Positions 948-63,608 of a stretch of 64,000 nt of DNA are shown here, one piece after another (the stretch's first letter is position 1; each line of letters starts with the position of its first letter). Below the pieces are notes generated by a model. It searched no databases and was not told where the DNA came from. It worked only from the letters and a program-made list of their open reading frames with translations. The stretch comes from Cardiobacteriaceae bacterium (GTDB lineage: Bacteria; Pseudomonadota; Gammaproteobacteria; Cardiobacteriales; Cardiobacteriaceae): contig JAUMXB010000010.1 in NCBI GenBank assembly GCA_030529365.1, positions 1 to 64,000 on the forward strand, written 5' to 3'. The position numbers were made by a program, and so were the translations under genes.

Positions 948-1031
948 AATAATCATTTTTTCTCATAAATAAGCGCTTATTACGAGAAAAAATATCGATA
1001 AAAGCACTTTATAATGAGAAAAAATACCATT
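948..1031. repeat. AAGCGCTT modular element, copy 1
   Basis: Two cores, AAGCGCTT at 971-978 and AAGCACTT at 1002-1009, are 31 bp apart. They are separated by an A/T box (CGAGAAAAAATATCG) and flanked by inverted end boxes (AATCATTTTTTCTCA left, TGAGAAAAAATACCATT right). It lies just downstream of the 3' end of the minus-strand fecE. Confidence 0.85.
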
Positions 1032-4737: not shown

Positions 4738-5089
4738 GAGAATAGTCCTTGTTTGGATTCAAGGTGCGCATCTTGAAGAAAACGGTTGTGCTTTGCAAGC
4801 GGCAGGGAAAGATTTTTTCAGGGAAAACACAGCAGAGTGTGAGAAACGCGGGCAGGGATTGATACCCAACATCAAACATTTGTCGGCACGGGTTTTCAGG
4901 AAAAGCGCTTTGCACTTCTCGTGAGTCTCCCACAAAGTAGGCTGATTTACGGGCTAACGATGTTTACAGGCTAATTTGCATCATCTCGTACGTCGGCTCC
5001 ATGCGCGAACGCATTCCTACGCAAATCCGGGTGACGCCGCAGGCGGGTGGCATCAGCGTCCTGTCCGGTAATGACGTTAAGAAACTGTA
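4738..5089. other. Intergenic region upstream of fecB
   Basis: Should hold the fec promoter (minus strand), but I could not assign -35/-10 boxes with confidence. A lone AAGCGCTT lies near 4906 without the other repeat modules. On the plus strand 4941-5090 is an open run of 49 codons ending in TAG five bases before repeat copy 2. Its readable tail is QIRVTPQAGGISVLSGNDV. It looks like the 3' end of a lost gene, but I do not recognise the family. Confidence 0.4.
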
Positions 5090-5176
5090 GAAAATAGCGA
5101 TTTTTTACCACATCAAAGCGCTTATGGTGAGATTTTTTCTCAATATAAGCGCTTGTCGGTGAGAAAATTTATCATC
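5088..5176. repeat. AAGCGCTT modular element, copy 2
   Basis: Cores at 5116-5123 and 5147-5154, 31 bp apart. The left end box is ATAGCGATTTTTTACCA, the middle box TGAGATTTTTTCTCA, and the right box TGAGAAAATTTATCA. Here the ATAG/TTTTTACC end lies left, so the element is inverted relative to copies such as 7, 8 and 10. Its right end touches the tonB stop codon. Confidence 0.88.
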
Positions 5177-9000: not shown

Positions 9001-9082
9001 GTGCGTAGTTTTTGTGATATTGCCATTTCTTAGAAACCAGTACGATCGTGTTGCTCCATAATCGCGCAAGGATTGTCCACGT

Positions 9083-9412
9083 GTAGGTTGGTAGTGAGCC
9101 GTTAGGCGGACTCCAACTCATGATGAACGTTGATTGTTGGGGTTCGCTGCGTTCACCGCCAACCTACGCCCGCTATCGCTGTGCGATAGATGTCGCGAGT
9201 AACGTTCACTATCGATCCCGAAAATCCCGGCATGCGAATGCTTTGCGATGCCGAATCTCCGCGTGCGTGCCGCTACACGGCACACACCCTACCAACGCGC
9301 CCGTAAGGTAGATGTCAATCCACTGTCGCGAAGCGATCGCAGGTTGGTGGTGAGCCGTTGGGCGGACTTGAACATTGATTGTTGGGGTTCGCTGCGCTCA
9401 CCGCCAACCTAC
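9083..9412. repeat. Cluster of four GTAGGTTGG/GGGGTTCGC small repeats
   Basis: Four copies of a 30-37 bp unit with the theme GTTGGGGTTCGCTGCG-CTCACCGCCAACCTAC or its reverse lie at 9083-9117, 9136-9167, 9339-9369 and 9381-9412. They are arranged as two facing pairs, so each pair can form a large hairpin. Single copies occur at 22884, 39819 and 63609. The intervening 9170-9338 shows no gene. Confidence 0.75.
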
Positions 9413-9462
9413 AGACGGATAATCCTTGTGCGGTGATAGAACAACGCCATTGGTATTACGCA

Positions 9463-10339: not shown

Positions 10340-10424
10340 ATATAGTGATTTTTTCTCATAGATAAGCGCTTATAGTGGTAAAAAATTGCTATTGAAGCGC
10401 TTCTTAGTGAAAAAATAACTCATA
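10340..10424. repeat. AAGCGCTT modular element, copy 3
   Basis: Cores at 10364-10371 and 10395-10402, 31 bp apart. The left box is ATAGTGATTTTTTCTCA. The middle box is of end type (TGGTAAAAAATTGCTA). The right end overlaps the grxB stop codon. Confidence 0.85.
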
Positions 10425-12160: not shown

Positions 12161-12256
12161 AATATAATCATAGTTTTTTTTGCCATTATTAAGCGCTTGT
12201 ATGGATGTTTTTTATCGCGATAAGCGCTTATGGATGGTAAAAAGATGCTATTTTTT
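12161..12256. repeat. AAGCGCTT modular element, copy 4
   Basis: Cores at 12191-12198 and 12222-12229, 31 bp apart. Both ends are of the TTTTTnCCA/TGGTAAAAA type (ATAGTTTTTTTTGCCA left, TGGTAAAAAGATGCTATTTTTT right). The CTA of the right end is, on the minus strand, the TAG stop of the mevalonate kinase gene. It separates mvaD-grxB from the kinase gene. Confidence 0.87.
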
Positions 12257-20760: not shown

Positions 20761-21398
20761 AGTGTGTCGTCACAATACCTTTAACCACATGGTCAAAATT
20801 CGGATTTCCACTGCGGCGGCAAATGAATCCAGCCTTTTGCATAGAGTGTGGCAATGCCCCGTCAGCATTTGAAATCCCAAAATCGGTTTTCGATCAAACG
20901 CCGGAAACGATACAGGTAACCGTCAAAAGCCAACGGCTCCCGACGGTTGGCTTTGGGCGGGATCACCGCCACCATGCCGGCCCCGGCGGCCAGTGCCCGG
21001 ATATCGTTGGTGTCACAAGCCTTGTCGGCCAGCAGATATTCTGCGGGCATGCCTGCTATCAACGCCGGCGCATGGTGGCAATCTGCCGCGCTGCCGTCGC
21101 TCAAGACAAAATGCAGTGGCATGCCGTGGTTGTCCACCTCCAGATGCAGTTTGGTGTTCAGCCCCCTTTTGTGCGGCTCATGCCCTGGTTACCACCCGCC
21201 GCTCCGGCAGCGTGGGGATGAGCTTTGATATGGGGGCATCCATCATCAGCCATTCTATGTCCTTCCCGTCAGTCAGGGTGTGCGGCAGTTGTGTCCGGAT
21301 GCCTTTGTCACGCCAGCGGGTAAAGCGGCTGTGGGCGAGTGGTATCGTAGTGGAGTTATGTCACGAAACAGTGGTTATGGCGATTTTGATCGTGACGA
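20761..21398 (-). mobile_element. IS5-family element remnant, copy 2 (truncated transposase pseudogene)
   Basis: Terminal inverted repeat GTGTCGTCAC (left) and GTGACGACAC (right). The minus-strand frames give RFTRWRDKGIRTQLPHTLTD, EWLMMDAP, then DNHGMPLHFVLSDGSAADCH, MPAEYLLADKACDTND and FRRLIENRFWDFKC, so it is a frameshifted IS5-type transposase. The N-terminal ~60 residues are missing at the same junction as copy 1 (GTGGTATCGTAGTGGAGTTA here). CTAG lies beside the left end. Confidence 0.85.
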
Positions 21399-21534
21399 CA
21401 CGGCCCATGCTATCTGGCCAAGCATAGGAATGCTCATCTTTCTAAAATGGCAGAGCTGTTTGATTGCTCCGTTAACGTAATACACAAAAAACAAAAATCA
21501 ATATTTTCTTGAAAAATTACTACTTGCGGTGAGC

Positions 21535-23905: not shown

Positions 23906-24170
23906 AGTGGCCTATGGCCATGCCGGGGCGCAGCGCATCATAGCGCTGACCGTTTATCCGGGAACGACGGCAAAACAGGCGGTCGAGCGCTCCGGCATGG
24001 TGCGCTTTTTCCCGGAGATTGACATGAATGCGCTCGATCTCGGTATTTTTTCGCAGGGCTGCACGCCGGATACGGTGCTGCGCGACGGCGATCGCGTGGA
24101 GATTTACCGCCCGCTCCTGTGCGATCCCAAGGAGATGCGCCGGCAGCGAGCAAGAAAGCACAAAGAATAG
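23886..24170 (+). CDS. ratB: RatB/RnfH-family ubiquitin-fold protein
   Basis: 94 aa, UPF0125. IRVEVAYGHAGAQRIIALTVYPGTTAKQAVERSG and LRDGDRVEIYRPLLCDPKEMRRQRA are the family landmarks. It begins inside ratA. The stop TAG at 24168-24170 lies within the left end box of repeat copy 5 (AATAGTAATTTTTTCTCA). Function is unsettled in general; it is usually found next to ratA and smpB. Confidence 0.92.
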   Translation: MDTIRVEVAYGHAGAQRIIALTVYPGTTAKQAVERSGMVRFFPEIDMNALDLGIFSQGCTPDTVLRDGDRVEIYRPLLCDPKEMRRQRARKHKE

Positions 24171-24250
24171 TAATTTTTTCTCACGAATAAGTGCTTTTTA
24201 TGAGGAATTCTCTCGTCGTGAAGCGCTTTTGGTGGGAAATTTTTTCATAT
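24166..24250. repeat. AAGCGCTT modular element, copy 5
   Basis: Cores AAGTGCTT at 24189-24196 and AAGCGCTT at 24221-24228, 32 bp apart (one base more than usual). The end box ATAGTAATTTTTTCTCA supplies the ratB stop. The middle box is TGAGGAATTCTCTCG. Confidence 0.83.
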
Positions 24251-25589: not shown

Positions 25590-25616
25590 GTCTTGTTTCA
25601 TAAATTAGCTTGAAAT

Positions 25617-25663
25617 CGTCTGTTTTTACCATCAGAAAGCGCTTATTGCGGTAGAAACAGACG
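25617..25663. repeat. AAGCGCTT modular element, copy 6 (single core)
   Basis: One AAGCGCTT at 25637-25644 flanked by 14-bp inverted arms CGTCTGTTTTTACC and GGTAGAAACAGACG. Symmetric mini-version of the family, just upstream of the initiator tRNA promoter. Confidence 0.75.
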
Positions 25664-30938: not shown

Positions 30939-31023
30939 TGAGAAATTTTCTCATCAATAAGCGCTTATCGTGAGAAATTTTCTCGTGATAAGCGCTTTTG
31001 TTTGGTAAAAATACACTATTTTT
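30939..31023. repeat. AAGCGCTT modular element, copy 7
   Basis: A textbook copy: TGAGAAATTTTCTCA, core 30959-30966, TGAGAAATTTTCTCG, core 30990-30997 (31 bp), end box TGGTAAAAATACACTATTTTT. It ends 10 nt before the truB start codon. Confidence 0.92.
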
Positions 31024-31032
31024 GGCTTATTC

Positions 31033-31926
31033 ATGAAAAGAACAAGAAAGCCGCTGCACGCCGTGCTGTTGCTCGACAAGCCGGTAGGCGTGAGCAGCAA
31101 TCATGCCTTGCAACAGGCGCGCTGGATCTATCAGGCGGCCAAGGCCGGGCATGGCGGTACGCTTGATCCCTTTGCCAGCGGTTTGCTGCCGGTGCTTTTT
31201 GGCGATGCCACCAAGTTCGGACGTTATTTTCTGGATGGCGACAAGGCCTACGAGGTGCGGCTCGCCTTCGGCGCGGAAACGGATACCGGCGATTTGACCG
31301 GGCAGGTGATGCGTGAAGCAGTGGTGCCGAATTTGCAAGCAATGGATTGGCAAACGGTTTGTACGCAATTTACGGGTGCGCAGATGCAGACGCCGCCCGC
31401 CTTTTCGGCGCTGAAGATTGACGGGCAACGCGCCTACGAACTGGCGCGGCGCGGCGAAATGCCGGAGATGGCGGCGCGCGAAGTGGTGATTCACGAGTTG
31501 CGGGTGTTGCAAGTGCATGAGCAGGCGGTGGACTTGTATGTGCGTTGCAGCAAAGGCACCTATATCCGCTCGCTGGTGCGCGATATAGCGGCGTATCTTG
31601 GCAGCGCCGGTCATGCCAGCGCGTTGCGCCGTGTGGAAGTGGCGGGTTTGCAGGATATGGTAGCGCTTGGATCTTTGCGCGCCTTGCGCGAGGCGGAGGA
31701 TTTTGCCGCCTTGCAGGATTTTCTGTTGCCGCTGGAGGCTTGCGTGGCGCATTTGCCGCGCGTGGAGGTGCCGCCGGAAAAATTCCGCTTTATCCGCAAT
31801 GGCAACGACATCGCCTGCGTTTGTGCGCATCCCGGTGAAGTCGCGCTCTATCACGAGGACGCATTTTTCGGCGTCGGCGAGTCGCGCGACGGGCGCGTCT
31901 ATCCGCTGCGACTATGCAGCATGTAA
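31033..31926 (+). CDS. truB: tRNA pseudouridine(55) synthase
   Basis: 297 aa. Makes the universal pseudouridine in the T-loop. The catalytic Asp45 is in HGGTLDPFASGLLPV. LLLDKPVGVSSN is near residue 13 and the C-terminal PUA-like region ends the protein (FIRNGNDIACV). Follows rbfA after repeat copy 7, as in the classic infB-rbfA-truB order. Confidence 0.96.
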   Translation: MKRTRKPLHAVLLLDKPVGVSSNHALQQARWIYQAAKAGHGGTLDPFASGLLPVLFGDATKFGRYFLDGDKAYEVRLAFGAETDTGDLTGQVMREAVVPNLQAMDWQTVCTQFTGAQMQTPPAFSALKIDGQRAYELARRGEMPEMAAREVVIHELRVLQVHEQAVDLYVRCSKGTYIRSLVRDIAAYLGSAGHASALRRVEVAGLQDMVALGSLRALREAEDFAALQDFLLPLEACVAHLPRVEVPPEKFRFIRNGNDIACVCAHPGEVALYHEDAFFGVGESRDGRVYPLRLCSM

Positions 31927-32055: not shown

Positions 32056-32346
32056 ATGCACCCAGCCAAAGTTTCGCGCGCGCGTTTGCAATGGCTCACC
32101 GATTTGCCCAATGTCGGCGCGGCGACGGCTGCGGATTTGCAAGCGTTGGGCATAAAGCGCCCGCAGGATTTGCACGGGATGGATGCGCTGGCGCTTTACC
32201 ACGCGCTTTGCGAACGACAGGGGGCGCGGATGGATCCGTGCATGCTCGATGTTTTCCTGTCGCTTGAAGATTTCATGGCGGGCGGCGAGGCGCGAGCATG
32301 GTGGCACTATACGGCGGAACGCAAGCGGCGTTATCCGCAGGTTTGA
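32056..32346 (+). CDS. Small helix-hairpin-helix protein (Cdd1/pathogenicity-locus type)
   Basis: 96 aa. RLQWLTDLPNVGAATAADLQALGIKRPQDLHGMDALALYHALCERQGARMDPCMLDVF is an HhH-type DNA-binding-like fold seen in small proteins of the Cdd1 family, whose function is not known to me. The stop TGA at 32344-32346 is the first three bases of repeat copy 8. Confidence 0.75.
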   Translation: MHPAKVSRARLQWLTDLPNVGAATAADLQALGIKRPQDLHGMDALALYHALCERQGARMDPCMLDVFLSLEDFMAGGEARAWWHYTAERKRRYPQV

Positions 32347-32427
32347 GAAATTTTCTCATCATTAAGCGCTTATGTCGGGAAATTTTCTCGCGATAAGCGC
32401 TTAATTATGGTAAAAAATAACTATTTT
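32344..32427. repeat. AAGCGCTT modular element, copy 8
   Basis: TGAGAAATTTTCTCA, core 32364-32371, GGGAAATTTTCTCG, core 32395-32402 (31 bp), end box TGGTAAAAAATAACTATTTT. It fills the whole 91-bp gap between the HhH gene stop and the queA start. Confidence 0.92.
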
Positions 32428-32437
32428 CAAGGTTTTT

Positions 32438-33466
32438 ATGAATTATACCAAGTCAGATTTCCATTATGATTTGCCGGATCATCTTATTGCCCGTCATCCT
32501 TTGCCCGAACGCAGCGGCGCGCGCATGTTGGTGGTGGAGGGTGAGGCGTTGGCTGATCGCGAGGTGCGCGATTTTGTTTCGATGCTGCGCGACGGAGATT
32601 TGCTGGTGTTCAACAATACGCGCGTGCTGCCTGCGCGTCTTTTCGGGCAAAAGGCGAGCGGCGGCAAGGTGGAGATTCTGATCGAGCGCCTGCACGATGC
32701 GCATCGCGCGAGCGCTTATGTGCGGGCGTCGAAATCGCCGAAGGCAGGCGGCGAGATCCTGGTCGGCCATCATCGCCTCACGGTCGGCGGACGCCATGAG
32801 GCGCTTTTCCTGCTGGAAAGCGCAACACCCTGGCCGCAACTGCTTGCCGAGGCGGGCGAGATGCCGATTCCGCCCTATCTGGAACGCGCGGCGGACGACA
32901 GCGATGACGAGCGTTACCAGACGGTTTATGCCAGGCATCCGGGCGCGGTGGCCGCGCCGACGGCGGGTCTGCATTTTGACGAGGCGATGCTGGCCGCGAT
33001 TGCCGCACGCGGCATTGCCACGGCGGAAGTGACGCTGCATGTCGGCGCGGGCACTTTCCAGCCGGTGCGCCACGAGAATCTCGCCGAGCATGTGATGCAC
33101 GAGGAATGGCTTGCCGTGCCGCAGGAGGTAGTGGATGCGGTGGCGGCGTGCAAAGCGCGCGGCGGACGGGTGGTGGCAGTGGGCACGACGAGTTTGCGCG
33201 CGCTGGAAAGCGCGGCGGCATCTGGCGAATTGCAGGCTTTTGAGGGGGATACCGATCTCTTTATCACGCCGGGCTACCGCTTCCGCGTGGTCGATGCGCT
33301 GTTTACCAATTTCCATTTGCCGGAATCGACTTTGCTGATGCTGGTGAGCGCTTTTGCCGGCTATGAAAATATTCGCGCGGCGTACCGCCATGCCATCGGG
33401 CAGGGCTATCGCTTTTTCAGCTATGGCGATGCGATGTTTTTGCCGCGGAATATGAATGAATGGTGA
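32438..33466 (+). CDS. queA: S-adenosylmethionine:tRNA ribosyltransferase-isomerase
   Basis: 342 aa. Makes epoxyqueuosine in the anticodon wobble base. [63 protein letters not shown], and [32 protein letters not shown] are diagnostic. Length is typical. No tgt, yajC or secD follows, unlike the common order. Confidence 0.97.
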
Positions 33467-34602: not shown

Positions 34603-34628
34603 AAAACACGGCTTCGGCCGTGTTTTTT
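34603..34628 (+). terminator. Terminator after the lipoprotein pair
   Basis: AACACGGC-TTCG-GCCGTGTTTTTTT. Confidence 0.9.
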
Positions 34629-34640
34629 TATGCCCAGAAA

Positions 34641-34727
34641 ATATGGTGATTTTTTACCACCATCAAGCGCTTGTTGCGAGAAAATTTATCACGATAAGCG
34701 CTTAATAATGGTAAAAATACACTATAA
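34641..34727. repeat. AAGCGCTT modular element, copy 9
   Basis: Symmetric: end box TATGGTGATTTTTTACCA, core 34665-34672, GAGAAAATTTATCA, core 34696-34703 (31 bp), end box TGGTAAAAATACACTATAAA. Both ends are of the TTTTTACC/GGTAAAAA type. Confidence 0.92.
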
Positions 34728-37895: not shown

Positions 37896-37978
37896 TGATA
37901 AATTTTCTCAATATAAAGCGCTTTATATGATAAATTTTCTCACTATAAGCGCTTATAAATGGTAAAAATCTACTATAA
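37896..37978. repeat. AAGCGCTT modular element, copy 10
   Basis: TGATAAATTTTCTCA, core 37916-37923, TGATAAATTTTCTCA, core 37947-37954 (31 bp), end box TGGTAAAAATCTACTATAAA. It starts 5 nt after the recJ stop and ends 26 nt before the thrC start. Confidence 0.92.
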
Positions 37979-39414: not shown

Positions 39415-39499
39415 AGAAGCGGCGGCGGAGCGGGCGGCTGCGCCATTCCGCTGCCGGATATGGCCGCCTCCCCAAAAAATGGCATAGGATTTTTCTTTT

Positions 39500-39596
39500 A
39501 ACCCTTTGAACAAAGGGATTTATTCAAAGGGTTGTCTATGTCATTTTTCGGGGGGCGCTATATGGGAATGGCGGGTTTTTCCCGCCATTTTTTGTT
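39500..39596 (+). terminator. Two stem-loops after thrC
   Basis: The first, AACCCTTTGAA and TTCAAAGGGTT, is a perfect 11-bp inverted repeat at 39500-39533. The second, AATGGCGGG-TTTTT-CCCGCCATTTTTT at 39566-39596, is a standard rho-independent terminator. Confidence 0.85.
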
Positions 39597-39599
39597 GTT

Positions 39600-39655
39600 T
39601 TATGGTGATTTTTTACCGCATAAAGCGCTTATGGATGGTAAAAAATGCTATTTTA
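39600..39655. repeat. AAGCGCTT modular element, copy 11 (single core)
   Basis: One core at 39623-39630 between two end boxes, TATGGTGATTTTTTACC and TGGTAAAAAATGCTATTTT. Near-perfect palindrome around the core; the minimal form of the family. Confidence 0.88.
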
Positions 39656-41733: not shown

Positions 41734-42968
41734 AAGGGGAAGTGCTGGATCTGGATTATCGCGGCCGCGGTGTGGTGCGCGAGGGCGGGCGAGTGGTGTT
41801 TGTGGCAGGCGCGTTGCCGGGTGAGGTGGTGGAATATCGCGTGACGCAAGCAAAAAAGCGCTTTGCCGAGGGCGAGATGACGGACGTTTTGCAGGCATCG
41901 CCTGATCGCGTTGCGCCGCCTTGCCCGCATTACGCGCAATGCGGCGGCTGCGATTTGCAGCATTTGGCGCTTGCCGCACAGCGGCAGTGGAAAGAGAAAT
42001 GGTGGCGCGGGCAACTGGCGCGGCATGGCGGCGGCGAGCCGCAAATGCTCTGGCCGCTGCTCGCGGGCGACGGCTGGCATTACCGGCGCCGCGCGCGGCT
42101 GGCAGTGGCAGGCAAAACGCTGGGATTTCGCGGGCGGGCGACGCACGAGGTGGTGGCAGTGGAAAGCTGCATGGTGCTGGAGCCGCGGCTGGATGCGTTG
42201 TTGCCGGCGCTTGCCGGGATATTGCCGCAAGTGCCGGTGGTCGAAGGGGTGACGCTGGATGCGGGCGATGACAGCGTGGCCGTTGGTTTTATCAGCCGTG
42301 AGCGCTTGCCGGACGCCGCGCGTGTGGCGTTGCGCGATGTTGCCGGGCAAACAGGTGCGGCGGTGTGGTGGAGTAAAGAGCAGGTAGCCGGTGCAGCGCT
42401 TTCCTATCGCTTGCCCGGATTTGGCGTGGAGATTGCCTATACGCCGCAGGATTTCACTCAGGCCAATGCTGCGCTCAATCGCGCGATGGTGGCGCAGGCG
42501 ATGGATGTGTTGCAGCCGCAGGCAGGCGAGCGTATTGCCGATTTCTTTGCCGGGCTCGGCAATTTTTCCCTGCCGATGGCGCGGCTGGGCGCGGAAGTGC
42601 TGGCGCTGGAAGGCGAGCAGGAGATGGTCAGGCGCGCGCAGGCACTGGCCGATGCACACGGTTTGCCGGTGCGCGCGGTGCGCGAGGATTTGTTCGCCGT
42701 GACGGATAAACGACTGAAAGCCTTTGGGAAGTTTGATGCCTGGCTGCTGGATCCGCCGCGTGCCGGGGCGCAGGCACTGGTGCAGGCGATGACGGCGAAA
42801 ACAGCGCCGCAGCGGATAGTGTATGTCTCGTGCGATGCCGCCACGCTGGTGCGCGATGCGGCGATCTTGCGCAGCAAGGGTTATCGGCTGGCGGGCGGCG
42901 GCGTGATCGACATGTTTGCGCAGACGGCGCATCTGGAAAGCATGGCGCTGTTTGTTCGTGAAAGATAG
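41730..42968 (+). CDS. rlmD: 23S rRNA (uracil-1939-C5)-methyltransferase
   Basis: 412 aa. A TRAM-like N-terminus (LDYRGRGVVREGGRVVFVAGALPGEVVEY), a Fe-S cysteine cluster CPHYAQCGGCDLQHL at about 70-84, the SAM-binding FTQANAALNRAMV and ERIADFFAGLGNFSLPMA, and DPPRAGA plus VSCDAATLVRD with the catalytic Cys. The stop TAG at 42966-42968 is part of the ATAG end box of repeat copy 12. Overlaps the Lrp-type gene by 4 nt. Confidence 0.94.
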   Translation: MKGEVLDLDYRGRGVVREGGRVVFVAGALPGEVVEYRVTQAKKRFAEGEMTDVLQASPDRVAPPCPHYAQCGGCDLQHLALAAQRQWKEKWWRGQLARHGGGEPQMLWPLLAGDGWHYRRRARLAVAGKTLGFRGRATHEVVAVESCMVLEPRLDALLPALAGILPQVPVVEGVTLDAGDDSVAVGFISRERLPDAARVALRDVAGQTGAAVWWSKEQVAGAALSYRLPGFGVEIAYTPQDFTQANAALNRAMVAQAMDVLQPQAGERIADFFAGLGNFSLPMARLGAEVLALEGEQEMVRRAQALADAHGLPVRAVREDLFAVTDKRLKAFGKFDAWLLDPPRAGAQALVQAMTAKTAPQRIVYVSCDAATLVRDAAILRSKGYRLAGGGVIDMFAQTAHLESMALFVRER

Positions 42969-43046
42969 TGATTTTTTACCATAATGAAGCGCTTGATGTG
43001 AGATTTTTTACAAATAAAGCGCTTCAAGTTGGGAAAATTTATCATC
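42964..43046. repeat. AAGCGCTT modular element, copy 12
   Basis: End box ATAGTGATTTTTTACCA, core 42987-42994, TGAGATTTTTTACA, core 43017-43024 (30 bp, one short), right box GGGAAAATTTATCA. Orientation is inverted relative to copies 7, 8 and 10. Confidence 0.87.
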
Positions 43047-44423: not shown

Positions 44424-44510
44424 GATGAGAAATTTTCTCATCAATAAGCGCTTTCCTTGATAAAATTTCTCACAATAAGCGCTTTTTTTGTGGTAAAAAA
44501 CCACTATTTT
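44424..44510. repeat. AAGCGCTT modular element, copy 13
   Basis: TGAGAAATTTTCTCA, core 44446-44453, TGATAAAATTTCTCA, core 44477-44484 (31 bp), end box TGGTAAAAAACCACTATTTTT. Lies between the converging fba and DedA genes. Confidence 0.92.
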
Positions 44511-48424: not shown

Positions 48425-48508
48425 ATGATAAATTTTCTCATCATGAAGCGCTTATGGCGATAAATTTTCTCACGATAAGCGCTTATAGATGAGAAAAAAC
48501 CACTATAT
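48425..48508. repeat. AAGCGCTT modular element, copy 14
   Basis: TGATAAATTTTCTCA, core 48446-48453, CGATAAATTTTCTCA, core 48477-48484 (31 bp), end box GATGAGAAAAAACCACTATA. Lies in the divergent gap between the FimX-like gene and the next plus-strand gene. Confidence 0.92.
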
Positions 48509-53361: not shown

Positions 53362-54398
53362 GCCGCACGCAGCGCGTCGCCGATGGCCGCGCCCTGCAAT
53401 CCCTGGGCGATGAACGGCGCAGGCGACAGCGCCTGCAAGGCCGGTAGGCGCGCGCGCATATCCTTTTCCGTTTCCCGTTCTCCCAGCACTTGCGCGAGAC
53501 GCAAAGCATTGGCACCGTCTTTCAGGCTGTCGGTGCGCTTGAAAAGCTGCCAGCGCGCCTCTGCATCCGCCTTTTGCCAATGGCGCACCGTGCCGGCAAA
53601 ATCCTGTACCCAGTCTATCCAGCGCCGCACCGCGTTGGGCAAGGGCAGCGTCTTCCGCAAGGCTTCAGCCGCTGCGGCCTGACCTTCCAGCGCCAGCGCC
53701 AACCGTTCGGCAGCGCTTGCCGCCGTATCCGTCTGCAAGGCTGCGCACAATTTCTCCGCATCCACGGCGGCGGTGCCAAAGAGCACGAAAAGCGCGCCCA
53801 CTTCTGCCAATCCTGCAAAAAAGCACCACGGCGCCGCGCTTTGCAGGGCGCATTCGCATTCGCGCCAGACGCGTTCGCCGGTGAGCGTTGCCAGTTCGCC
53901 GCTTGCTGCCATTTCGCGGCAGAGCGCGAGCGTTTCCCCGGCCACGGTAAACCCCAGCGGCGCAAAGCGCGCATGAAAGCGGAAAAGGCGCAACACGCGC
54001 AGCGGATCCTCGGCAAAGGCGGGCGAGACATGGCGCAACACGCGCGCCTCGAGATCAGCACGGCCGCCGTAAGGATCGATGATGTTTCCGTTTTCGTCTT
54101 CCGCTATGGCGTTTACCGTCAGATCACGACGGCGCAAATCTTCCTCCAGCGTCACCTCGGGCGAAAAGGCAAAGGCAAAGCCGTGATGGCCGGGCGCGGT
54201 TTTGCGCTCCTGCCGCGCCAGCGCGTATTCCTCGCCGGTTTGCGGATGGATGAAGACGGGAAAATCTCGCCCCACCGCCTGAAAGCCTTTTGCCAGCATG
54301 GCCTCGGGTGTGGCGCCGACCACCACATAATCGCGGTCTTTGACCGCAAGCCCGAGCAAACGGTCGCGAACCGCACCGCCGACCAGATAAATGTCCAC
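53307..54398 (-). CDS. cca: CCA tRNA nucleotidyltransferase
   Basis: 363 aa, class II nucleotidyltransferase. [25 protein letters not shown] (catalytic Asps), [23 protein letters not shown], and [17 protein letters not shown]. Adds or repairs the 3' CCA of tRNAs. E. coli Cca has 412 residues with a C-terminal HD phosphohydrolase domain. Here no HD motif is seen and the protein ends in a Ser-rich tail inside the convergent overlap. Confidence 0.93.
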
Positions 54399-54407
54399 AA
54401 ACCCTCC

Positions 54408-54493
54408 ATGAGAATTTTTCTCATCATTAAGCGCTTATTGTGAGAAATTTTCTCACAATAAGCGCTTTATAGTGGTAAAAATAATCTATTTTT
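54408..54493. repeat. AAGCGCTT modular element, copy 15
   Basis: TGAGAATTTTTCTCA, core 54429-54436, TGAGAAATTTTCTCA, core 54460-54467 (31 bp), end box GTGGTAAAAATAATCTATTTTT. Starts 10 nt upstream of the cca start codon. Confidence 0.92.
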
Positions 54494-57220: not shown

Positions 57221-57305
57221 TGATAAATTTTCTCATCAATAAGTGCTTATTGCGATAAATTTTCTCATAATAAGCGCTTGTGGATGGTAAAAAAGTACCA
57301 TTTTT
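57221..57305. repeat. AAGCGCTT modular element, copy 16
   Basis: TGATAAATTTTCTCA, core AAGTGCTT 57241-57248, CGATAAATTTTCTCA, core AAGCGCTT 57272-57279 (31 bp), end box TGGTAAAAAAGTACCATTTTT. Ends 9 nt before the next start codon. Confidence 0.92.
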
Positions 57306-57314
57306 GGAGTTTTA

Positions 57315-58235
57315 ATGAAATCATGGAAACTGCCGCATCCCTATGTGATGCTTTTTTTGGCACCGCTTTTCTGGGCGACAAGCAATGTGACCGGGAAAAT
57401 CGGCAAGGGGCTGCTCACGCCGTATGAATTCACGTTCTGGCGCTGGATAGTGGCGGCGGCGGTGATGACGGCGGTGTTCTGGCCGGTGATCCGCGCGGAT
57501 TTGCCGGTGCTGAAAAAGCGCATGCTGTGGCTCTTCATCGTGGGCGGCAGCGGGTTCGCGCTGTTCAATATCGTGCTTTACAGTGCGTTTCGCCATGGCG
57601 CGAGCGTGACCAACGTCTCCATCATTACGGCGCTGATTCCGGTGATGGTGTTGCTGGTGGACGTGTTTTTCCTGCGCGGGCGCGCCCATCCCCTGCAATG
57701 GCTGGGTGTAGCGCTGTCTTTTCTCGGCGTGGTCTGGGTGGTGAGCGGTGGCAGGCCGCTTGCCCTGCTCGAGCAGGGGATTGCACGCGGCGATTCGCTC
57801 GCGTTTGTGACGTCGGCGATTTATGCCGCTTATTCGCTGGCGCTGCGTCATGCGCCCAAGGTGCATTGGGCGAGTTTGCTGTGGGCGATGTGCGTGGCGG
57901 CGGTGGTGGTGAGCGTGCCGTTTTATGCCTATGAAGGGATGACGCAGGGTTTTCGCCTGCCAGGCGTCAAGGCATGGCTGCTGGTTCTGTATGTTGCCAT
58001 TTTCATTGCGATTGTTTCCAAGCTGTTTTACATGGAAAGCGTGATTGCCATTGGTGCGAGCCGTGCGGCGCTGACGATGAATCTGCTGCCGGTGTTCGGC
58101 GCAATCGTTGGCGTGATGTTTTTTGCCGATGAGGAGCTGAGCGCGCATGTGCTGGTGGCGCTGGTGCTGGTGGGCGGCGGGATTTTGCTGTCGGAGTGGG
58201 GCGCGGCACAGCAGCGAAGGTTGGGAATGGTGTGA
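57315..58235 (+). CDS. EamA-family transporter
   Basis: 306 aa. Ten hydrophobic segments in two EamA repeats: APLFWATSNVTGKIGKGLLTPYEFTFWRWIVAA, SITALIPVMVLL-type NVSIITALIPVMVLLVDVFFLRG, and a second repeat ending ALTMNLLPVFGAIVGVMFFADEE. Third EamA exporter in the window. A GGAG within the end of repeat copy 16 serves as its ribosome-binding site. Confidence 0.87.
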   Translation: MKSWKLPHPYVMLFLAPLFWATSNVTGKIGKGLLTPYEFTFWRWIVAAAVMTAVFWPVIRADLPVLKKRMLWLFIVGGSGFALFNIVLYSAFRHGASVTNVSIITALIPVMVLLVDVFFLRGRAHPLQWLGVALSFLGVVWVVSGGRPLALLEQGIARGDSLAFVTSAIYAAYSLALRHAPKVHWASLLWAMCVAAVVVSVPFYAYEGMTQGFRLPGVKAWLLVLYVAIFIAIVSKLFYMESVIAIGASRAALTMNLLPVFGAIVGVMFFADEELSAHVLVALVLVGGGILLSEWGAAQQRRLGMV

Positions 58236-58946: not shown

Positions 58947-59030
58947 TGAGAAATTTTCTCATCAATAAGCGCTTATGGCGAGAAAATTTATCAACATAAG
59001 CGCTTATTGATGGTAAAAAGTTGCTATTTA
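58947..59030. repeat. AAGCGCTT modular element, copy 17
   Basis: TGAGAAATTTTCTCA, core 58967-58974, CGAGAAAATTTATCA, core 58998-59005 (31 bp), end box TGGTAAAAAGTTGCTATT. Its edge touches the yjdM stop codon. Confidence 0.92.
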
Positions 59031-60637: not shown

Positions 60638-60642
60638 AGGGG

Positions 60643-60747
60643 GTATTTTTTCTCGTGATGAAGCGCTTGTTGCGATAAGTTTTCTCTCGCTGCGCGAGCT
60701 GTTCCAGTCGTGACAAACGCTTGTTTATGGTGAAAAATGCTACTTTT
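60643..60747. repeat. AAGCGCTT modular element, copy 18 (interrupted)
   Basis: Core AAGCGCTT at 60661-60668 and a decayed core AAACGCTT at 60715-60722, 54 bp apart, that is 31 plus about 23. The extra bases (around TCGCTGCGCGAGCTG) interrupt the middle box after GATAAGTTTTCTC. The end box is ATGGTGAAAAATGCTACTTTT. A decayed or inserted copy. Confidence 0.7.
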
Positions 60748-63066: not shown

Positions 63067-63577
63067 GTAGGAGTCCTTAAATATTGAATCGGAGAGCGCC
63101 GCGTGCACTCGGAGGCAGGCAAAGGCGCTGAAAATAAAGTCACTGCTGGTTGCGGTTGACGGAGAGGTTTGCGGGCGTCATGCGCCTCGTGTCACGGGCG
63201 TCATGTTCAAATCACGATATTCGGTGTTGCTGTCCATGTAGGGGTCCTTGATTTTGAAGAGGAGAGCGCCGCGTGCACTCGGAGGCAGGCAAAGGCGCTG
63301 AAAATAAAGTCACTGCTGGTTGCGGTTGACGGAGAGGTTTGCGGGCGTCATGCGCCTCGTGTCACGGGCGTCATGTTCAAATCACGATATTCGGTGTTGC
63401 TGTCCATGTAGGGGTCCTTGATTTTGAAGAGGAGAGCGCCGCGTGCACTCGGAGGCAGGCAAAGGCGCTGAAAATAAAGTCACTGCTGGTTGCGGTTGAC
63501 GGAGAGGTTTGCGGGCGTCATGCGCCTCGTGTCACGGGCGTCATGTTGAGATCGCGGTATTCGGTTGAGTTGTCCAT
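63067..63577 (-). repeat. Three tandem 170-bp repeats carrying extra hslU start sites
   Basis: Units of about 170 bp repeat with start codons on the minus strand at 63577, 63407 and 63237, then the true hslU start at 63066 (spacings 170, 170, 171). Each unit has AAGGA, ATG and [14 protein letters not shown] ([14 protein letters not shown] in the outermost), then VTRGA and a TGA stop. This gives three 19-residue upstream frames (63577-63518, 63407-63348, 63237-63178). The two inner units are nearly identical, pointing to recent slippage or unequal exchange. Confidence 0.93.
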
Positions 63578-63608
63578 GTAAGAGTCCTTGGATATTGGAA
63601 TGCTTTGT

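Follow-up and report, generated by a model that had tools for sequence, protein, structure and literature searches.

A composite palindromic repeat at gene ends in a Cardiobacteriaceae genus, with stop codons of adjoining genes as its likely by-product

The stretch of DNA analysed here (the window) spans 64,000 nucleotides, positions 1–64,000 of one contig of a Cardiobacteriaceae bacterium whose 2.30-Mb genome lies on 32 contigs. Among its genes are tonB, grxB, mvk, ratB/RnfH, recJ, rlmD and yjdM, and between them lie 18 copies of an interspersed, composite palindromic repeat of about 83 bp. An Rfam search of the window returned one tRNA and nothing else. Elements were called with a profile HMM (scores are nhmmer bits), gene identities were taken from Pfam, and genes were predicted with a home-made caller whose stops are more certain than its starts. 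Genome-wide counts rest on 743 kb sampled as stretches, about one third of the genome, and the sister species of the same genus (G007) served as the orthology reference.

The plan of the element, derived from 73 copies with a 31-bp pitch, follows the order B-A-B-A-B'. The A box is AAGCGCTT, and two A boxes stand 31 bp apart; the B box is TGAGAAATTTTCTCA-like, with the half-site TGRKAAA, and B' is a distinct terminus on one side, TGGTAAAAAATnACTATTTTT. The pitch corresponds to three helical turns with a B box midway, which suggests two faces of bound protein. The profile HMM found 224 copies in the 743 kb, or about 690 per genome; 149 elements carry two A boxes, 61 carry one and 13 carry three. 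Only 3.5% of element bases overlap genes (96.5% lie outside), in a sample that is 81% coding, and outside the elements AAGCGCTT occurs at the frequency of the Markov expectation. Like a MITE, the element is short, high-copy (224 copies in 743 kb), non-coding and interspersed; its termini are often unlike, with B on one side and B' on the other, and the flank of B' extends variably. A DNA uptake sequence, a short motif found about once per kb in genes and between them, was rejected as an identity, for the element occurs about 0.3 times per kb and is nearly always intergenic.

Several genes of the window end inside an element, which is assigned the strand to which its B' end points. The initial annotation had placed four stop codons within elements, and the HMM and gene calls gave the same coordinates: the TAG of mvk, a GHMP kinase gene on the minus strand (12248–12250), lies in the B' end (TGGTAAAAAGATGCTATTTT) of the plus-strand element 12177–12253, whose A boxes are at 12191–12198 and 12222–12229; the TAG of ratB/RnfH (24168–24170; Ub-RnfH by Pfam) lies within the edge of the minus-strand element 24164–24246 (38.7 bits); the TAG of rlmD (42966–42968; tRNA_U5-meth_tr) within that of 42963–43044 (minus, 51.4 bits); and the stop of the Cdd1/HhH gene (Cdd1 by Pfam) is the TGA formed by the first bases (32344–32346) of 32344–32427 (plus, 75.0 bits). 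The looser contacts it had listed were also confirmed: the minus-strand stop of grxB (10420–10422; Glutaredoxin2_C) lies inside 10340–10422 (minus, 51.0 bits), that of yjdM (59028–59030, minus; YjdM by Pfam) at the edge of 58947–59029 (plus, 72.8 bits), and that of tonB (5175; TonB_C) touches the end, 5174, of element 5091–5174 (minus, 67.3 bits). An open frame at 4941–5090, said to stop 5 nt before the last of these, does end there, with the element starting directly at 5091 and no such gap; as a gene the frame is without support, the caller giving it 29 aa and a score of 8.7. One case had been missed: the gene at 53490–54443 runs 35 nt into the plus-strand element 54409–54491 (72.2 bits). 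The stops of recJ (37891) and of a DUF1543 gene (60637) fall 4 nt ahead of elements 37896–37976 (plus, 58.1 bits) and 60642–60742 (plus, 37.4 bits), respectively. In total, 9 of the 18 elements are flush with a stop, and the window is thus richer in such contacts than the genome average.

The remaining elements are 948–1029 (minus, 48.7 bits), 30939–31021 (plus, 74.6 bits), 34641–34722 (minus, 69.7 bits, with a terminator hairpin at about 34603–34633 upstream of it), 57221–57303 (plus, 65.7 bits), a copy in a convergent gap at 44426–44509 (plus, 67.2 bits), another in a divergent gap at 48426–48508 (plus, 73.2 bits), a short copy with one A box at 25613–25655 (minus, 26.8 bits) and a partial one at 39603–39649 (plus, 28.2 bits). 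The middle B box of 60642–60742 carries a short nested insert, TCGCTGCGCGAGCTGTTCCAGTC. Three elements of the sister species have it in their middle B box as well, and the related CTCGCTGCGCGAGCTCTTCGAGTCCCG occurs elsewhere in that genome. Other repeats were seen as well. A second repeat, about 105 bp long (39459–39562), recurs in the sister species with 79–93% identity in more than 20 places, frequently no more than a few hundred bp away from an element, and further repeat families at 9082–9168 and 9320–9413 have about 20 similar places there. A 170-bp unit stands in three tandem copies, 92–98% identical, at 63081–63590, and a duplication of about 640 bp, 79–91% identical, links 70–709 with 20775–21410, 20.7 kb apart.

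The initial annotation had proposed comparing the distance between element edges and stop codons with that at shuffled positions. We re-placed each element randomly inside its own gap, using gaps with one element only, and scored gene ends in an edge zone from −7 to +9 nt of the element edge. Of these tandem gaps in the 743 kb, 44 of 138 had a stop in this zone (32%, against 18% expected; p=0.0002), as had 15 of the 36 convergent gaps (42%, against 26% expected; p=0.004). Divergent gaps present the element with no 3' end, and a gene end came that close in 1 of 20 of them (24% expected). Enrichment is therefore present across about one third of the genome. The suggested preference for gene ends is supported; its size is small, about 1.7-fold once short gaps are allowed for.

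A preference of this kind could in principle come from the insertion enzyme, for example a RAYT transposase that targets stop codons or gene ends in trans, in the manner known from REP sequences. Besides the 1.7-fold edge excess, this idea can draw on an intact RAYT gene with two elements directly upstream in the sister species (G007:C53) and on the decayed remains of a RAYT gene close to an element in the genome under study (G000:C7). With an element every 3 kb or so, however, nearness to a RAYT gene is weak evidence; RAYT genes occur without elements in relatives (three copies in G003, one in G001), several relatives have none, and no intact copy is found in the own genome. The phyletic match is thus not clean, and a RAYT is unlikely to be the cause. 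Tolerance alone accounts for the edge excess, with a mirror image at gene starts, and we consider enzyme targeting improbable.

That mirror image is pronounced. On the start side, the zone from −7 to +9 nt was occupied in 2% of cases against 17% expected, and the zone from 10 to 28 nt in 31% against 16% (743 kb). The excess at stops and the deficit at starts together indicate that elements are packed as tightly as the stop codon and the ribosome-binding region permit. Copies would have been inserted at many places and survived where harmless, the harmless zone extending as far as a stop codon itself while staying about 10 nt clear of a start; the avoidance of some 10 nt before starts and the excess at 10–28 nt are what such survival predicts. 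Insertion may in addition favour gene ends mildly, as placement within the gap is non-uniform even after this sieve. At three elements of the window the ATG that opens the following gene lies exactly 13 nt past the CTAT of B', or CCAT in the third, with no evident Shine-Dalgarno sequence (ATG 31033 at 30939–31033, ATG 32438 at 32344–32438, ATG 57315 at 57221–57315), and the sister species retains the 13-nt spacing at the first two. The B' flank shows a weak extension to TTTTnTGAAA about 13 nt farther out, with or without a gene start at that place, so that wTGAAA 13 nt past CTAT belongs to the repeat, and a dedicated promoter with a fixed start codon was ruled out for the B' end.

We then asked how the stops arise. 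Of the gene ends facing an element in the 743 kb, 33 of 225 have their stop inside it, on the B' side mostly as the TAG of ATAGT and on the B side mostly as the TGA of TGAGAAA. Of the frames read inward, 26–29% met a stop within 12 nt in the elements, 24% in dinucleotide shuffles of the same elements and 9% in element-free 3' flanks. Enrichment of the element in stops beyond its composition is thereby ruled out, since their frequency is about that of the shuffles. At the B' edge, 11 in-element stops lie at −6/−7 (an edge TAG or TAA) and 3 lie deeper; this predominance could also reflect site choice. Most likely, the stop codons follow incidentally from the places in which the repeat is tolerated and from its high A+T content.

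Elements might alternatively be selected right behind stops as transcription terminators or REP-like mRNA 3'-end structures, and ribosomes could stall at a hairpin no farther than 15 nt from a stop; E. coli REPs at that distance influence translation (PMC12306157). The transcribed element does fold strongly (mean MFE −27 against −11 kcal/mol for shuffles), although its symmetry accounts for this, and only 3 of 32 flush tandem genes have another terminator. On the other hand, the arms show no covariation, half-sites vary independently, and orientation is unbiased, with B' proximal at 122 and distal at 103 gene ends in the 743 kb; in the first 410 kb, B' shares the direction of transcription in 33 tandem gaps and opposes it in 48. 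Any terminator hairpin usually comes after the stop and before the element (seen for 15 of 38 elements situated more than 60 nt away), the stem is not directly followed by a U-tract, and elements are present in divergent gaps too (21 of 50). An intrinsic terminator, with a G+C-rich stem, a direct U-tract and an orientation matching the gene, was rejected on these grounds, as was an RNA hairpin under selection, because arm pairing is no better than in shuffled controls except weakly beside A boxes. The absent orientation bias and covariation, the terminators preceding elements and the shuffle-like stop frequency speak against the job in termination that the initial annotation had offered as one reading, and we regard selection for such a job as unlikely. 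A weak effect on transcript ends may nevertheless exist, given how few flush tandem genes have another terminator.

Comparison with the sister species showed stops changing hands between gene and element. The tail of rlmD reads LFVRER-TAG here, with the TAG in the element, and LFVQEK-TAA there, with the stop at the same codon position; the 74 nt remaining on that contig contain no element. For mvk, the sister species stops at a TAA immediately before the element, whereas here the element's TAG is used and the tail is slightly longer. The reverse holds for the gene at 31033–31926, which has its own TAA here and ends at the element's TGA, in the same place, there; the Cdd1/HhH gene is absent from the place behind its orthologue, and the counterpart of element 32344–32427 terminates the preceding gene with the same TGA. 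The gene at 53490–54443 ends at the element's first TGA in the sister species, while a 1-nt shift here leads to a TGA 35 nt further in. In both species the same element edge ends yjdM. From these pairs we infer that a native stop decays and the element stop behind it takes over, the direction of each change being likewise read from the comparison. An A+T-rich element with TAG or TGA near its edges would offer a ready-made stop; once it abutted a gene, the native stop would be free to mutate and the element stop could replace it with the protein little changed, the stops thereby being a by-product.

Positions of the elements are largely shared. Elements 12177–12253, 30939–31021, 34641–34722 and 48426–48508 are conserved at their places and the arrangement at 58947–59029 is identical, whereas the gap orthologous to that of 10340–10422 is without an element; overall, 9 of the 12 evaluable elements of the window lie at the same place in the sister species. 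Among 24 adjacent orthologous gene pairs of the first sample, 6 had an element in both species, 2 only here, none only in the sister species and 16 in neither, so that 6 of 8 element gaps but 0 of 16 element-free gaps of the own genome contain one there (Fisher p=0.0002). Such orthologous copies reflect shared ancestry and hence are not independent insertions. Within them, A boxes were identical at 237 of 238 positions and B half-sites at 347 of 389, against 207 of 366 (57%) in spacers and 2979 of 4656 (64%) at fourfold sites of flanking genes. A boxes unchanged while spacers and fourfold sites drift indicate strong purifying selection on them and, judged by sequence comparison, this selection acts on the DNA, not on a hairpin. 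As to the domain separation that the initial annotation had also suggested, such strict conservation of A boxes at orthologous places would be compatible with a role at the level of DNA. With less certainty, we infer that the A boxes bind a protein. The boxes would be kept because a predicted sequence-specific dimeric DNA-binding protein, nucleoid-structuring or regulatory, uses them. Tolerated insertion with later stop takeover, together with boxes kept by such a protein, is probably the overall explanation.

As AAGCGCTT has the core AAnCGnTT, the core of LacI-type operators, we searched the bacterial family for LacI helix-turn-helix (HTH) proteins. Each of the two element-bearing genomes encodes one and 0 of 10 relatives does, and the sugar operon beside this gene has a one-A element in its promoter gap as the only palindrome of this kind there. 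The A boxes would then be operators of the genus's one LacI-family regulator and the elements a genome-wide array of LacI-type sites. Yet the two genomes are sister species and amount to one coincidence; the gene resembles a local sugar-operon regulator, its neighbours being a tagatose-type kinase gene, which it adjoins, and sugar-transport genes; some 1,300 sites would be enough to titrate out an ordinary repressor; and elements are in any case present in 21 of the 50 divergent gaps that measure 80 bp or more. Unlike LacI-type operators, whose core they fit, the A boxes of the element come in hundreds of pairs alternating with another palindrome. We therefore think this reading very improbable, and the LacI-family protein is a candidate A-box factor in the sense of a lead. 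In both species an element lies 8–9 nt behind the 3' end of its gene. A bolder proposal, which we hold to be a long shot, is that gene boundaries in the genus are marked by about 690 phased docking arrays for two proteins, in which A boxes occupy one helical face and B boxes the other; a dedicated predicted factor, perhaps the genus's only LacI-family protein, would read them, and they would organise the chromosome, with positions fixed between species.

The element is confined to two sister species of one genus. They contain 462 and 446 exact A-pairs, nine other genomes of the family have 0 or 1 each, and no other genome among 369 sampled from the class has more than 1, one exception aside. 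One further family member of another genus, G008, stands apart with 68; related elements were rejected there, as its A-pairs arise from a different, very abundant scattered palindrome, CAAAGCGCTTTG, also found in genes. That genome has 4,391 copies of AAGCGCTT, mostly within CAAAGCGCTTTG, at about one per kb, inside genes and paired at gene ends, and the palindrome looks like the HIP1 or uptake-signal type. In two other genomes, G009 and G010, the octamer is nearly missing (4 and 7 copies).

Stop codons supplied by repeats are already known, and the repeat family appears to be the new part. REP termini often give a TAG stop to flanking genes (PMC3733652), and E. coli REPs cluster near stops, many within 15 nt (PMC12306157). 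In one pneumococcal genome, 36 genes take their stop from BOX with no clear truncation of their proteins, and BOX can supply starts (PMC3049150). Like REP/BIME sequences (GTAG- and CGTC-tagged REPs; Stenotrophomonas SMAGs), the element is a high-copy palindromic intergenic repeat near gene ends. A REP, however, is a single stem-loop of 20–40 nt with GTAG or CGTC at its foot, whereas the element is an 83-bp composite with two kinds of box at a 31-bp pitch, without arm covariation, without such a tag at either end of its consensus and with an inconsistent RAYT association in the family. It shares with Streptococcus BOX, of about 100 bp, a modular build and the encoding of gene stops, but sequence and host are unrelated, and BOX carries terminal inverted repeats and target-site duplications; for the element, neither could be demonstrated. 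No published description of the family turned up in searches of open literature for Cardiobacterium or the octamer, and as far as searched it is new to the record. The element illustrates how an abundant repeat can come to supply stops, and sometimes starts, with no function dedicated to this, along the path also taken by REP and BOX repeats. The 8-bp cores, constant at orthologous sites amid drift, imply that the family probably binds something, and it could help to identify a DNA-binding protein that is specific to the genus and acts genome-wide.

Two elements of the window, 37896–37976 and 44426–44509, correspond to two elements each in the sister species, bordering extra DNA or contig breaks: the former has two copies flanking about 1.8 kb, and for the latter both orthologous genes each carry an element, on separate contigs. 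Gene content and order differ at these places between the two species, as if elements were rearrangement points.
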